A stretch of 64,000 nucleotides of DNA, taken from Candidatus Gastranaerophilales bacterium (GTDB lineage Bacteria > Cyanobacteriota > Vampirovibrionia > Gastranaerophilales > Gastranaerophilaceae). Position numbers and translations under genes: made by a program. This document shows positions 1 through 36,135 of this stretch, piece after piece. The DNA is taken from the NCBI GenBank assembly GCA_944323155.1, contig CALURL010000012.1:1-64000 (forward strand), in the 5' to 3' direction. Position 1 is the stretch's first letter; every line of letters begins with the position of its first letter. Under the pieces are notes generated by a model. It worked only from the letters and a program-made list of their open reading frames with translations, did not search any database and was not told where the DNA came from.

Positions 1-335
1 TGGGAGAAGGTGGCTGTAAGCCGGATGAGGGGAAGTAGAAATGTTGTTTACATATTGCCATATAATTTGTTGGGCAGGTATACCCAACCTACACAGAATG
101 TCATTCCGAACTTGTTTCGGAATCTTACCCTTTGAAATGAAAACATTAAATCGCTAAGAAGCACCAGTCTTACTTGTTGGGGTAGAAACCACAACTTATA
201 ATTTTTTTAAGTCTTTTGAATATTGATACAGGTTCCTACGTGCTAGCACCCCTCACCCACCCTTCGGGCACCCTCTCCCATTAGGAGAGGGAAAAAGTTT
301 ATTTGTTGGGGTGGAAACCACAACCTACAATTTTT
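1..335. repeat. Cluster of interspersed palindromic repeats
   Basis: Gene-free stretch made of short palindromic modules that recur across the left half of the window. A composite unit at about 1-95 (GGCTGTAAGCCGGATGAGG, a spacer, then a TTGGGCA/TACCCAA-type hairpin) returns nearly unchanged at about 5090-5185 and inverted near 15080-15170 and 29385-29475. A second palindrome, ATTCCGAACTTGTTTCGGAAT, is at about 103-123. A module with CCTACGTGC is near 235-245, a CCCTCTCCC/GGGAGAGGG hairpin is near 270-292, and a GTTGGGGT hairpin follows. No open reading frame is convincing here. Confidence 0.8.
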
Positions 336-3538: not shown

Positions 3539-4945
3539 ATGCAAGAGTTATTTAGCAGGGCAGAAAACGAAAAAATTATTTTTGTTGAGGATTTTAGGGA
3601 ACTTAAAGGGGTTAAAAATCTTGCTCTTAAAAAACTTTGCATAATTAAAACTGATTTTAAAAATATTAATCAGATAAAAAAATTTTGCAAAACTCATCCA
3701 AGTTTAGAGGTTTGGATAGCTTCTGAGGAAGTGTCACGAAAAAACATTCTTTTTGCTAATTCCTGCGGTGTAAAAAATGTTATTCAATATCCGGTTGATA
3801 CAAAGATTATCCATGAGTTTTTTAAAAGAAAAGACAGAACACAGGATGTTCGAAAAGAACCTGCAGCAAGCTATTTTTTAAAAGGTCTTAAAGTCATGAT
3901 TGTGGACGACAATCAGATGAATATTGATTTACTTGTTGAAACTTTATCTGATATGGGATTGGAGATTAAAACATTTACAAAACCCAAAGATGCCTGTGAT
4001 AATGCGCAGCATAACAAATATGATTTATTCTTAATAGATATAATGATGCCTGAAATGTCAGGATTTGATTTTACCGAGATTATAAAGACTACTAAAATAA
4101 ACTTTGACACTCCAATAATGTTTATTTCTGCATTAAACGATCCTGAAACTAAAATCAGAGGTTTTGATTTGGGGTCTTGTGCTTATATAGAAAAACCTTT
4201 TAATGTAAGTGTTGTAAGGTCGCAAGTGTATAATGTCTTAAAGACAAAATGTTTACGTGAAGCTTTGAATGACAGAAAAGAAACCTTTCTTGCAATGGTT
4301 ACTCATGATTTGAAAACGCCTGTTAATGCAGAGATTTGTGCATTGGAATTTTTGCTTAAAAATAACGGGCTTGAGCTTAATTCTGTACAAAATGAAATTA
4401 TAAAAGATATTCTCGGCGCTGCAAAATATATGAAGAGTTTAGTTGATAATATTTTGCATAAGTATAAGTTTGATAATGAAAGTTTAAATCTTAATAAAAA
4501 ACATGTATCGCTGAAACTTCTTATTGCCGAGTGTATTGAAGAAACTAAGTATCTTTTTGAAGAGCGAAATCAGCAGTTAATATTTAATTGCAGTGTAAGA
4601 AACAGTGACGCAGTTGTTGATTGTCTTGAGATTAAAAGAGTGGTGCATAATCTTTTGTTTAACGCTATAGAATATGGTTTTAAAAATTCAAAAATAACAA
4701 TAGAGCTTTACGAAACAAAAACGGAATATGTTTTTGGAATAAAAAATTTTGGGCACGGAATAGATTTGGCAAACCCTGATGAAGTTTTTGAAAAGTTTGT
4801 AACCCTTGCAAAGCAGAATAAAAAAGGTGGCACCGGATTAGGATTGTATATTTGTAAAAGAATTGTAGAAGCGCATGGTGGAAAGATTTGTGCAGAAAGT
4901 AAGGTTGATGATTATACCAAAATAACATTTACCCTTCCCAAATAG
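3539..4945 (+). CDS. Receiver-histidine kinase hybrid signalling protein
   Basis: Two-component signalling protein of 468 residues with no membrane segment, so probably cytosolic. Residues 1-110 look like a degenerate receiver-like domain. A full receiver follows, with acidic pair D123/D124, phospho-acceptor D167 in LIDIMMPEMSG, and a lysine in IEKPF. A HisKA domain has its phospho-histidine at H256 (MVTHDLKTP). The HATPase domain ends with the G-box GGTGLGLYICKR. The receiver precedes the kinase, the reverse of common hybrid kinases, so intramolecular control by D167 is plausible. It stands alone, divergent from dnaG, with no partner regulator beside it. The ligand is unknown. Confidence 0.85.
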   Translation: MQELFSRAENEKIIFVEDFRELKGVKNLALKKLCIIKTDFKNINQIKKFCKTHPSLEVWIASEEVSRKNILFANSCGVKNVIQYPVDTKIIHEFFKRKDRTQDVRKEPAASYFLKGLKVMIVDDNQMNIDLLVETLSDMGLEIKTFTKPKDACDNAQHNKYDLFLIDIMMPEMSGFDFTEIIKTTKINFDTPIMFISALNDPETKIRGFDLGSCAYIEKPFNVSVVRSQVYNVLKTKCLREALNDRKETFLAMVTHDLKTPVNAEICALEFLLKNNGLELNSVQNEIIKDILGAAKYMKSLVDNILHKYKFDNESLNLNKKHVSLKLLIAECIEETKYLFEERNQQLIFNCSVRNSDAVVDCLEIKRVVHNLLFNAIEYGFKNSKITIELYETKTEYVFGIKNFGHGIDLANPDEVFEKFVTLAKQNKKGGTGLGLYICKRIVEAHGGKICAESKVDDYTKITFTLPK

Positions 4946-4978: not shown

Positions 4979-5330
4979 ATTGTTGGGCAGGTATGCCCAA
5001 CCTACAAATTTACAAATCGTGTTGGGGTAGAACCCCCAACTTACAATAACTCTCCCCTAAATGGCGAGAGGATATTTATTCCCTTCTCCCATAGGGAGAA
5101 GGTGGCTGTAAGCCGGATGAGGGGAAGTAGAAATGTTGTTTACTAATTGCCATATAATTTGTTGGGCAAGTATGCCCAACCTACAAAATTTCACCAAAAC
5201 CTTTAAAGGTTTTTGAATATTTGCACAGGTTCCTACGTGCGTAGTACCCCTCACCTGCCCTTCGAGGCACTCTCTCCCATAAGGAGAGGGGATAAGATAT
5301 TAAAGTCTTTCAAATATTGACCGTAGCACA
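4979..5330. repeat. Palindromic repeat cluster
   Basis: Contains a TTGGGCAGGTATGCCCAA hairpin (about 4983-5000), a GTTGGGGT/ACCCCCAAC hairpin, CTCCCATAGGGAG, the composite unit also seen at 1-95, a second TTGGGCA hairpin near 5161-5181, a TTCCTACGTGCGTAG module near 5230-5245, a CTCTCCC/GGGAGAG hairpin and a partial module (AAAGTCTTTCAAATATTGA) ending near 5330. It directly abuts the candidate toxin-antitoxin locus. Confidence 0.75.
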
Positions 5331-5331
5331 C

Positions 5332-5360
5332 TTGAAATTTGCAAAGAAATGATTTATAAT
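5332..5360 (+). promoter_or_regulatory. Promoter of candidate antisense RNA
   Basis: TTGAAA (5332-5337), a 17-nt spacer and TATAAT (5355-5360) form an almost perfect sigma-70 promoter. Transcription should begin near 5367-5371. No plus-strand gene starts nearby, so it is expected to drive an RNA antisense to the small minus-strand ORF at 5410-5478. Confidence 0.6.
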
Positions 5361-5366
5361 AAATAT

Positions 5367-5459
5367 ATAAGGGCGAGAGGATTGCCGTCCTCTCTTTAAA
5401 AGCCCAGGTTTAGTGTTTAAGTGCTAGCACTATCAATAAGATAAGTACTAGCGCTTTTT
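5367..5459 (+). ncRNA. Candidate antisense antitoxin RNA
   Basis: Predicted transcript of roughly 90 nt from the promoter at 5332-5360. It contains a GAGAGGA/TCCTCTC hairpin (5375-5394). It ends in a 12-pair stem with two G-U pairs (AGTGCTAGCACT at 5420-5431 against AGTACTAGCGCT at 5444-5455) followed by TTTTT, a terminator-like end. It is fully complementary to the 3' UTR and most of the small ORF on the other strand, the arrangement expected of a type I antitoxin. The function is inferred from architecture only. Confidence 0.4.
5375..5394 (-). terminator. Hairpin downstream of the small hydrophobic ORF
   Basis: On the minus strand GAGAGGA-loop-TCCTCTC follows the small ORF stop by 15 nt. 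It is then followed by GCCCTTATATATTT, a T-rich but not perfect tail. It is probably the 3' end of the toxin-like mRNA. Confidence 0.4.
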
Positions 5460-5478
5460 CAGTTACACTGAAATCCAC
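5410..5478 (-). CDS. Candidate 22-residue hydrophobic type I toxin peptide
   Basis: A 22-codon ORF with a GTG start preceded by a perfect GGAGGTGAT ribosome site 8 nt upstream. The peptide begins MDFSVTEK and continues with the hydrophobic stretch ALVLILLIVLALKH, which could form one short membrane helix. It has its own promoter (5568-5596), a hairpin after the stop and an antisense transcript. These features match type I toxins such as the Ibs, TisB or BsrG groups in architecture, but I see no sequence identity to any family. It is too short for ordinary gene finders. It could also be a non-toxic small membrane protein. Confidence 0.45.
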   Translation of the reverse strand: MDFSVTEKALVLILLIVLALKH

Positions 5479-5567
5479 TATTATCACCTCCTTTCCTTTG
5501 TGTTTAATCAAATTTGTAGTTTGTGCCACACAGGTCAGTTGATGATTTAGGGCTTACCCCAAACATA

Positions 5568-5596
5568 ATAATAAAATAAAACTTCAGATAAATCAA
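5568..5596 (-). promoter_or_regulatory. Promoter of the small hydrophobic ORF
   Basis: On the minus strand TTGATT, 17 nt and TATTAT. The start is expected near 5561, giving a leader of about 80 nt. The leader begins with a segment (minus strand of 5550-5555, AAGCCC) complementary to GGGCTT just after the stop codon (minus strand of 5400-5405). Such 5'-3' end pairing keeps several type I toxin mRNAs inactive. Confidence 0.5.
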
Positions 5597-5635
5597 TAAA
5601 GAACGGAAATAAAATTAAAATAATCTAACAAGTTG

Positions 5636-5925
5636 AGCAAATTTACCCAACCTACATTTGCTAAAGTCTCTCGAAGATTGATACAAATATCTACGTGCGT
5701 AGCACCCCTGACCAAAACCTTTAAAGTCTTTCGGATATTGATACAGGTTCCTACGTGCGTAGCACACCTCTCCTGATGGGGGAGCGGATTGCGAGCAGAG
5801 GGCGAAGACGGTGCGCAGGCGACGGCGTTGCAGACCTGTTTAACGCGAACAACCAAGCAGAGCTAGGGTGGGTGAACAGTCATAGTTTTACTTGTTGGGG
5901 GTTCTACCCCAACAATGTAACTTTC
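5636..5925. repeat. Palindromic repeat cluster with a GC-rich module
   Basis: Contains two tandem copies of the module ending in CTACGTGCGTAGCAC (near 5691-5705 and 5751-5765). A GC-rich segment at about 5772-5860 (CGGATTGCGAGCAGAGGGCG ... GCGTTGCAGACCTG) recurs inverted near 36003-36085. A GTTGGGG/CCCCAAC hairpin lies near 5893-5913. The GC content contrasts sharply with the surrounding genes. Confidence 0.7.
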
Positions 5926-5964: not shown

Positions 5965-7767
5965 ATGAAGTATAGAGAAAACGTAAGAAACTTTTGTATA
6001 ATTGCCCACATTGACCACGGAAAATCAACATTGGCTGACCGTTTGCTTGAACAAACAGGTACTGTTGCACAGCGCGATATGCAAAATCAAATTCTTGATT
6101 CTATGGATATTGAGCGTGAAAGAGGGATTACAATTAAGCTTAATGCCGCCAGAATGAATTATAAATCTAAAAACGGCAAAGATTATATTCTAAATTTGAT
6201 TGATACTCCGGGGCACGTTGATTTTTCTTACGAAGTTTCACGTTCTCTTGCCGCGTGTGAAGGTGCTTTGCTAATTGTAGATGCCACTCAAGGCGTTGAG
6301 GCGCAAACGCTTGCAAATGTTTATCTTGCAATGGAACAAGAATTGGAAATTATACCGGTAATTAATAAAATAGATTTACCTTCCGCAGATGTAGAAAGGG
6401 TTAAAGCTGAAATTGAAGAGGTTTTAGGTATCGATGCATCTCTGGCTATTCCTGTAAGTGCAAAAACCGGTGAAGGCATTCAGGATGTTTTGGAAGCTGT
6501 TGTTGATTTAATTCCGCCTCCTGTTGATACGACTGAAAAACCTTTACGAGCACTTGTTTTTGACAGCGCTTATGATCAATATCTGGGAACTCTTTGTTTC
6601 TTTAAAATTGTCGACGGTAAAATGAGACTTGGTGATAAAGTTAAGTTTATGGCTTCCGGCAAAGAGTATGAAATTGTAGAACTCGGTTATCTAACCCCAA
6701 CACGTGTTCAGGTTGATGAACTTGTTTGCGGTGATGTTGGATACTTTGCAGCGTCTATCAAGGAACTTACACGATTTGTGGGTGATACGATTACACATAT
6801 TGAGGCGCCCGCAACAGAACCATTACCTGGCTACAAGGAAGCCTTGCCAATGGTTTATTCTGGTTTGTACCCTGTGGATAATGATGAATATCAAGATTTG
6901 AAAGAAGCTTTAGAAAAATTGAAACTTAACGACAGCAGTATAACTTTTGAACCTGAAACTTCTTCTGCATTGGGTTTTGGCTTTAGATGCGGATTTTTGG
7001 GCATGCTGCATATGGAAATTGCTCAGGAAAGGTTAGAACGTGAATATAATCTTTCACTTGTCACAACTGCACCTTCTGTTGTGTATAAAGTTTACAAAAC
7101 AAACGGCGAAATGGTAGAAATTGACAACCCTGCAAATCTTCCGCCGCCGCAGGTTAGAGATTATATAGAAGAACCTTATGTTAAAGTTCAGATTATTACT
7201 CCAAACGATTATGTCGGAACATTGATGGATTTGTGCCAGACAAAACGCGGAATTTTCAAGAATATGGCTTATATTGATAAAGTCCGCGCAACTCTGGAAT
7301 ATGAAATACCTTTAAGTGAAGTTATTACTGACTTTTATGACCAGTTGAAATCGCGTACAAAAGGTTATGCAAGTATGGATTATGAATTTAAAGATTACAA
7401 GCGTTCAAAACTTGTTAAACTTGATATTATGCTTGCAGGTGAAGTGGTTGACGCATTGTCTGTAATTTGTCATGAAGACAGTGCATTTTATATTGGACAA
7501 AAACTTACAACAAAATTGAAAGATATTATTCCCCGCCAGTTGTTTGAAGTTCCTATTCAAGCGGCAGTCGGCGGCCGTGTAATTGCAAGAACAAACATTA
7601 AAGCTCTTAGAAAAAATGTGCTTGATAAATGTTACGGCGGTGATATTTCACGTAAACGCAAACTTCTTGAAAAACAGAAGAAAGGTAAAAAACGTATGAA
7701 ATCTGTCGGACGCGTTGATGTTCCGCAAGAAGCATTTATGGCTGTCTTAAGTTTGGATGAAGAATAA
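5965..7767 (+). CDS. lepA: Elongation factor 4 (LepA), back-translocating GTPase
   Basis: Ribosome-bound GTPase that acts on the translocation step during stress or initiation. The protein has 600 residues, the usual family length. GTPase motifs are AHIDHGKST (G1), the [14 protein letters not shown] region (G3) and NKIDLP (G4, about residue 132). EF-G-like domains II, III and V follow. The LepA-specific C-terminus ends in lysine/arginine-rich [16 protein letters not shown]. It is a single gene that stops 14 bp before the convergent LuxR-type regulator. Confidence 0.97.
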
Positions 7768-11439: not shown

Positions 11440-11822
11440 TTACTTAGTTTGGCAGGTATGCCCAACCTACATTTTTGTTGGGGTGGAAACCCCAACTTAC
11501 AACTTTCAGTTACTATCAAAGGGATAAAAAATTCCCTCTCCCAGGGAGAGGACTTGTGTCAATCTAAGCATTTTTTGTTGGGGTGGAAACCTACAACTTG
11601 ATTGATAAATAGAACATGTGAGTAACAAACAGGATGACCTGGTGGCAGGACTTATATTTGGTTAGATCCCGAAATAAATTCGGGATGACATTATTGTAGG
11701 TTGGGGTTTCCACCCCAACAAGTAAAACTAGAAAATATCCTCTCACCCCTTGGGGAGAGAGTTAGAGAGAGGGGCTAATGTTGTTTAATTGTAGGTTGGG
11801 CATACCTGCCAAACAAAATTCT
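11440..11822. repeat. Palindromic repeat cluster
   Basis: Several GTTGGGGTGGAAACCCCAAC-type hairpins, GGCAGGTATGCC and GGCATACCTGCC modules in both orientations, CCTCTCCC/GGGAGAGG hairpins, and an ATCCCGAAATAAATTCGGGAT palindrome near 11665-11685 related to the one at about 103-123. No gene is seen between 11435 and 11826. Confidence 0.75.
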
Positions 11823-20016: not shown

Positions 20017-20080
20017 ATTTTGTTGGGCAGGTATGCCCAACCTACATTTTTTGTTCGGGTAGAAGCCCAACTTATATTTT
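20017..20080. repeat. Short palindromic repeat pair
   Basis: A TTGGGCAGGTATGCCCAA hairpin followed by a degenerate GTTCGGGTAGAAGCCCAAC hairpin, about 60 bp in all, between the HAD gene and the gene at 20134. Confidence 0.7.
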
Positions 20081-32029: not shown

Positions 32030-32147
32030 TGTTGGGCAAGTATGCCCAAACTACATTTTTGTTGGGGTGGAAACCCCAACCTACAAAATTTTACCAAAAC
32101 CTTTAAAATCTCTCGAATATTGACACAAGTACCTACGTGCGTAGCAT
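32030..32147. repeat. Palindromic repeat cluster
   Basis: A TTGGGCAAGTATGCCCAA hairpin, a GTTGGGGTGGAAACCCCAAC hairpin and a CTACGTGCGTAG module preceded by CCTTTAAAATCTCTCGAA. Confidence 0.7.
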
Positions 32148-34117: not shown

Positions 34118-34210
34118 CCCTCCCCAAAGGGCGAAGTACTACGTACGTAGAGACCTTTGCCAATATTCGGGAGTAATTGTAGGTTGGGCATACCTGCCCA
34201 ACCTACAATT
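34118..34210. repeat. Palindromic repeat cluster
   Basis: A CTACGTACGTAG palindrome (near 34140), then TTGGGCATACCTGCCCAA near 34182-34201. It lies between hisS and aroB. Confidence 0.65.
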
Positions 34211-35874: not shown

Positions 35875-36135
35875 TTTTTGTTGGAGTGGAAACCTCAACA
35901 TATACCTGCCCAACCTACAGTTATATTCTTACCAAAATCTTTAAAGTTTTTCGAAGATTGGTAAAGTTACCTACGTGCGTAGCACCCCTCACCCTATCCC
36001 TGCTTGGTTGCTCGCGTTAAACAGGTCTGCAACGCCGTCGCCTGCGCGCCGCCGTTTCGCCCTCTGCTCGCAATCCGCTCTCCCATGGAGAGGGGATTTG
36101 TTTTACTTGTTGGGCAAGTATACCCAACCGACAAC
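35875..36135. repeat. Palindromic repeat cluster with a GC-rich module
   Basis: GTTGGAGTGGAAACCTCAAC, TACCTGCCCAACCTAC, the CTACGTGCGTAGCACCCCTC module, then an inverted copy (about 36003-36085) of the GC-rich segment at 5772-5860, and a TTGGGCAAGTATACCCAA hairpin. This is the last repeat cluster in the window; none is seen to its right. Confidence 0.7.

Follow-up and report, generated by a model that had tools for sequence, protein, structure and literature searches.

A previously unlisted multi-copy family of apparent type I toxin-antitoxin loci in Gastranaerophilales genomes

We found that a short intergenic locus of a Candidatus Gastranaerophilales bacterium is best explained as a chromosomal type I toxin-antitoxin module belonging to a new multi-copy Gastranaerophilales family (probability about 0.85), with transcription and toxicity inferred. 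The locus lies in a stretch of 64,000 nucleotides (hereafter the window), and 104 distinct copies of it were analysed, almost all from Candidatus Gastranaerophilales (Melainabacteria). As far as comparison can show, these copies display an ORF under coding constraint, sequence signals for the two promoters, overlapping predicted transcripts and covarying helices, and they form a multi-copy family. A preliminary description of the locus had proposed a type I system, and this proposal is supported by every prediction that comparison could test. It should be noted that the word toxin is an inferred label here, because transcription and toxicity lack experimental data.

In the window, the candidate toxin ORF is located at 5410-5478 on the minus strand; it has 22 codons and a GTG start, and reads VDFSVTEKALVLILLIVLALKH. 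The ribosome-binding site GGAGGTGAT, at 5491-5483 of the same strand, is conserved in nearly all copies, and the start codon follows 4 nt downstream; the positions of this ORF and its perfect site were already given correctly in the preliminary description. The two promoters described there were recovered by a promoter scan, namely TTGAAA-17-TATAAT on the plus strand (5332-5360, 11/12 match) for the antitoxin and TTGATT-17-TATTAT on the minus strand (5568-5596, 9/12) for the toxin. The predicted antisense (antitoxin) RNA of about 92 nt would have two hairpins and cover 5368-5459 on the plus strand, its ends being inferred from the promoter position and from a conserved stem followed by T5. The predicted toxin mRNA of about 195 nt would cover 5368-5562 on the minus strand, an extent that is modelled and not mapped; the covariance model scores it at 187.5 bits, and the window copy is itself a member of that model. 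At 5371-5394, a GGGC element with a GAGAGGA/TCCTCTC hairpin is shared by the two strands: it would be the 5′ hairpin in the antisense RNA and the 3′ hairpin in the toxin mRNA. The latter is the hairpin that had been placed after the stop codon, and its stem (helix 5) has changes on both sides in 6/6 counted stem pairs across the copies. The predicted antitoxin terminator (5420-5459, plus strand) consists of the stem AGTGCTAG...CTAGCGCT and TTTTT, all within the codons of the toxin.

Taken by itself, the window gives modest evidence for the locus. There were 7 promoter-like sites in the 2 kb around it, compared with 5.4 by chance in shuffles, so that the promoter evidence from a single locus is weak. 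Neither of the proposed terminators was listed by a simple terminator scan of the locus, but the stem with T5 is plainly visible in the sequence. Compared with shuffles, both strands fold far better (z = −5.7 for the minus strand and −4.2 for the plus strand). It is the conservation of the ORF, the plus-strand promoter and the covarying helices over 104 distinct copies that argues against a chance arrangement.

When 59 related genomes were searched at the DNA level, the genome of the window itself proved to have a second copy (G000:C18:17959-18233, 86% identity), and many copies turned up in other genera, often in tandem. Then 29 full-length copies were aligned to build a covariance model for wider genome searches. 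The model matches 89 of the 191 genomes of the window's family, in 31/41 genera, and 77/146 sampled genomes of the order, including weaker matches in other families. There are up to 10 copies per genome, and tandem arrangement is frequent. Outside the order, the class sample gave just two weak matches, and all of the 38 positive genomes in the phylum sample belong to the window's family. In addition, scanning 84,980 species genomes with a sequence pattern gave 110 stretches; among the matches listed, the record title is mostly Candidatus Gastranaerophilales, Melainabacteria or uncultured bacterium, and the order Gastranaerophilales is placed in Candidatus Melainabacteria in the NCBI taxonomy. 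The conservation in relatives on which the preliminary description had made its proposal depend was found, for both the ORF and the spacing of its sites. However, the copies share ancestry, and counts of codons and pairings over them are not independent events. About half of the genomes have no detectable copy; thus, by this sequence survey, the locus type is not essential.

Some copies occur in records titled Heliobacteriaceae, Fusobacterium sp. or Brachyspira sp. (L096, L122, L151, L170 and L172). These titles are probably misassigned metagenome bins, because the match coordinates of L170 and L096 are identical to those in two genomes of the window's family (G143 and G106). Several copies look decayed: the start codon has apparently been lost in L116 (4406-4610), and the ribosome-binding site is missing in L152 (6834-6992) and L127 (296-485), as expected for ghost toxin loci. 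One class-level match (L205) was rejected as a family copy, being the start of an HU-like gene.

The hydrophobic core noted in the peptide of the window recurs across the family. A hydrophobic ORF of 19-28 residues is present in 103/104 copies, with ATG, GTG or TTG as start and a ribosome-binding site of mostly 6 to 12 matching bases (the final count accepts sites with GGAGGTGGT besides GTGA). The peptide consensus is xxFxIxEKALxIILLIILALKxx. In the 15-codon core, pN/pS was 0.39 over the 84 less redundant copies, whereas the other five frames gave 0.60-2.5. Variation in the core is least at codon position 2, and the substitutions mainly replace one hydrophobic residue by another. Furthermore, 6-nt deletions close to the start preserve the reading frame, and the ribosome-binding site is among the most conserved bases of the alignment. 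Judged from these substitution patterns, the peptide core is under selection at the protein level.

The antisense promoter, which is located outside the covariance model, scores at least 9/12 in 103/104 copies, compared with 16% of shuffles. On the toxin side, the same threshold is reached in 56/103 copies (again 16% of shuffles). The antitoxin promoter is thus the stronger and the toxin promoter the weaker one, as type I logic requires. The layout proposed for the antisense RNA, overlapping the 3′ UTR and the ORF and ending at a stem with T5, is conserved as well: a 5-nt T run follows the terminator stem in 75 of the 84 representatives, and in this stem (helix 3) 93% of cells are paired, with double changes. 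Codon choice points the same way. The Leu codon of the stem is CTA in 70/83 copies, compared with 6.6% in the long ORFs of the window, and its Ala codon is GCG in 42/66 copies, compared with 9.2%. Such rare, stem-forming synonymous codons in the part encoding the peptide helix reveal selection on the terminator stem, whose pairs also covary, so that the same bases serve both the peptide and the antisense stem. The terminal Lys codon is AAA in 54/56; however, AAA already makes up 86% of Lys codons in window genes and is uninformative on the T run. Being situated within the ORF, the conserved terminator leaves a gap of about 24 nt to the ribosome-binding site. Silencing must therefore act through the 3′ end or the ORF, although read-through is not excluded.

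The preliminary description had also proposed that AAGCCC near the 5′ end of the toxin mRNA pairs with GGGCTT just after the stop codon and thereby silences the mRNA. On the plus strand, AAGCCC is found at 5400-5405 and GGGCTT at 5550-5555; read on the minus strand, 5400-5405 is the 3′ arm (GGGCTT, helix 2) and 5550-5555 the 5′ arm (AAGCCC). In the five named helices, 88.9% of cells pair, compared with 34-50% when the helices are slid, and 94 cells have changes on both sides, compared with 32.6 in shuffles and 11-22 when slid. The 5′ and 3′ arms of the same copy pair at −11.45 kcal/mol, compared with −9.43 kcal/mol for arms taken from other copies (0/5000 permutations), and in the folds the pairing arm is paired with a probability above 0.5 in 88% of copies. 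The pairing is real and covaries. The silencing role did not hold in the same way, as the folds show no effect of the pairing on access to the ribosome-binding site: the unpaired probability of the site is 0.148 in the full-length mRNA and 0.149 after removal of the 3′ end (thermodynamic folding only). Activation through release of the pairing was not reproduced, since 3′ trimming does not open the site in the folds. By inference, the pairing may shield the mRNA ends against exonucleases or serve in timing while the mRNA is transcribed.

A stem-loop of the 5′ UTR at 5492-5546 (minus strand) is predicted instead to occlude the ribosome-binding site; it includes CAAACTACAAATTTG (5523-5509), and its arm AUCAUC (5546-5541) pairs with the site in the fold. 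With a shuffled UTR the unpaired probability rises to 0.280, and the native value is the lower one in 66/77 copies. The arm opposite the ribosome-binding site shows only weak covariation (p = 0.03), because the site itself hardly varies. In the folding model, it is this local stem and not the 5′-3′ pairing that keeps the ribosome-binding site hidden, whether the 3′ end is present or removed.

Together, these features suggest the following mechanism. The strong plus-strand promoter would produce the antisense RNA, with a 5′ hairpin and then a hairpin terminator within the toxin codons, and the weaker minus-strand promoter would produce the mRNA for a peptide forming one membrane helix. Both ends of this mRNA would be paired, and its ribosome-binding site would be hidden by the local stem. 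The antisense RNA would be complementary to the 3′ UTR of the mRNA and to roughly its final 16 codons, and silencing would most likely proceed by duplex formation and decay by RNase III. When the antisense RNA runs short, the peptide would be made and may damage the inner membrane. Transcription, the RNA ends, the silencing route, membrane insertion and toxicity are all inferred. Several points stand against the toxin-antitoxin reading: data on expression and toxicity are lacking, only about one copy in two has a recognisable promoter on the toxin side, the predicted antisense RNA falls short of the ribosome-binding site, the role proposed for the 5′-3′ pairing is absent from the folds, and about half of the genomes carry no detectable copy.

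As toxicity data are lacking, the ORF could also encode a small membrane peptide under antisense control whose function is regulatory and not toxic, for example in modulating a membrane protein or signalling envelope stress. Such a peptide would show the same anatomy, and single-copy stress peptides under antisense control are conceivable. However, the tandem and scattered copies, the absence from half of the genomes and the varied neighbours are less typical of a housekeeping regulator than of selfish or toxin-antitoxin modules, and tight control in several layers, by an antisense RNA, a closed ribosome site and paired ends, suggests a harmful product. We regard a purely regulatory role as unlikely.

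The multiple intergenic copies, the strong structure of both strands and the repeat-rich surroundings might recall a repeated non-coding RNA element, such as a small RNA or a mobile repeat, in which the ORF is incidental. Nevertheless, the ORF is intact in all but one of the copies, the low pN/pS is confined to its frame, indels near the start stay in frame, and the ribosome-binding site is conserved. A pure RNA element was rejected on this coding constraint and seems very improbable. The short ORF followed by a hairpin would also suit a leader peptide with an attenuator hairpin controlling the next minus-strand gene, but the gene past the hairpin varies between copies with mixed orientation, the antisense promoter has no role in attenuation, and the peptide contains no run of regulatory codons, only its hydrophobic core. 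This reading was rejected on context, and hardly any weight can be given to it.

None of the copies overlaps an ORF of at least 100 aa, and all are intergenic; their 196 neighbouring proteins fall into 127 clusters. Judged by inspection of their sequences and not by database comparison, the genes on either side of the window copy are response-regulator/histidine-kinase-like (3539-4945) and LepA-like, for a GTPase (5965-7767). No exact pattern match was found in viral contigs and no match in plasmids, and carriage by phages or plasmids was rejected. A 40-nt promoter-like match in a Lactococcus phage was judged trivial. In addition, the near-palindromic dispersed repeat TTGTAGGTTGGGCATACYTGCCCAACA has eight copies in the window (68-94, 4981-5007, 5160-5186, 11789-11815, 20021-20047, 32030-32056, 34177-34203 and 36108-36134), where none is expected by chance, and two of these repeats flank the locus. 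A second dispersed repeat, CCTACGTGCGTAG, has five copies (5232-5244, 5690-5702, 5750-5762, 32132-32144 and 35970-35982), of which three fall in a span of 550 nt around the locus.

One weak class-level match (L204) shows the layout of the main family, with a hydrophobic ORF of 24 residues. L204 and L219-L229, from another family of the same class (genomes G271 and G284), represent a second multi-copy locus type: the genome of L204 and one relative have about a dozen copies, encoding hydrophobic peptides of about 20 residues such as MDELQKLMSLLIILLLVTKL. Their layout comprises a ribosome-binding site, the hydrophobic ORF, a hairpin and, facing them, a TTGACA-17-CACAAT-like promoter; inside the ORF, a CCTCCTT run is complementary to the ribosome-binding site. 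Two copies look frame-broken or too short. Kinship with the main family is suggested by the layout and the helix sequence, but is not proven. There might even be a class-wide type I superfamily in which the same 40 nt or so specify the toxin membrane helix and the antitoxin terminator, with at least two branches, one in Gastranaerophilales (xxFxIxEKALxIILLIILALK) and one in this other family, and whose members have spread on the chromosomes, many to a genome, as selfish elements or as defence elements; the chance of this falls somewhat short of even.

That no known family was recognised in the preliminary description agrees with our searches. The locus has no Rfam match at the gathering threshold or at a relaxed E-value, and six other loci have none at the gathering threshold; the best sub-threshold match is SIB_RNA (15.2 bits against a gathering score of 56, E 2.2). 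No Pfam, NCBIfam, PHROGs, PADLOC or PDB family fits the peptide, and the best, TatA-like matches (E 0.005, 4/29 members) were dismissed as low-complexity matches that a hydrophobic helix gives by chance. Two general features of type I systems are present at the sequence level, a hydrophobic peptide gene of less than 60 aa with a ribosome-binding site and, as a promoter signal with conserved stem and T run, a predicted antisense RNA complementary to the toxin mRNA.

The new family comes closest to ibs/Sib in the size of the peptide, to aapA/IsoA in the pairing of the mRNA, and to txpA/RatA or yonT/SR6 in the overlap at the 3′ end. Like ibs/Sib, it has a very short hydrophobic peptide as its candidate toxin (IbsC has 19 aa; PMC8309996), several chromosomal copies and a predicted cis antisense RNA. 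However, Sib antisense RNA pairs with the ribosome-binding site (PMC12390103), whereas the antisense RNA here is predicted to end inside the ORF; there is no sequence match or above-threshold Rfam match, and the conserved 5′-3′ pairing and the E-K-A-L peptide start set the new family apart. In aapA/IsoA of Helicobacter and in hok/sok, the mRNA has 5′-3′ long-distance pairing, a hidden ribosome-binding site and an ORF-overlapping antisense RNA, and aapA has several loci per chromosome (PMC6733600). The conserved long-distance pairing is shared, but in aapA and hok it is this pairing that keeps the mRNA silent until 3′ trimming makes it active, whereas in the folds of the new family the local stem occludes the site; the peptides are unrelated, and no Rfam or protein-family model matches. 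In txpA/RatA, yonT/SR6 and bsrG/SR4 of Bacillus, the antisense RNA overlaps the 3′ part of the toxin gene and acts via RNase III or, for SR4, via the 3′ UTR (PMC12390103). The 3′ overlap and the strong ribosome-binding site are similar, but those toxins are much longer (yonT, 58 aa; PMC5848175) and no family model matches. Meanwhile, msoT1/msoA1 is a type I candidate reported in 2025 from Microcystis aeruginosa, of the related phylum Cyanobacteria; msoA1 has two predicted hairpins and binds the ORF at its 3′ end as well as the 3′ UTR (PMC12390103), as predicted for our antisense RNA. The Microcystis candidates are annotated proteins of 39-81 aa, MsoT1 has two predicted membrane helices, and the named relatives are cyanobacteria (PMC12390103), while the peptides of the new family have room for one helix at most (a size-based argument, without alignment to MsoT1). 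The new family is predicted to work like a type I system, and its membership of each named family fails or stays unsettled on at least one feature.

Type I systems have been reported only from Proteobacteria, Firmicutes and Tenericutes, besides the Microcystis candidate, and this narrow range is thought to reflect bias in the search methods (PMC12390103). Our literature search found no report of a type I toxin-antitoxin system for Melainabacteria and, by title and abstract, no toxin-antitoxin work on Gastranaerophilales that addresses such a system; an earlier report is not excluded, as subscription papers and preprints were outside its scope. To our knowledge, no earlier type I family is known in Melainabacteria. 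Thus, about half of the sampled Gastranaerophilales genomes carry what look like RNA-controlled toxin-antitoxin pairs of a previously unlisted family, whose peptides are below the usual limits of gene calling, so that annotation would miss them. To find such a family, with its many copies and its support from covariation, in a gut phylum that is uncultured provides direct evidence for the search-bias view. The family also offers more than 100 natural variants, together with a model for searches and a set of loci ready for testing.
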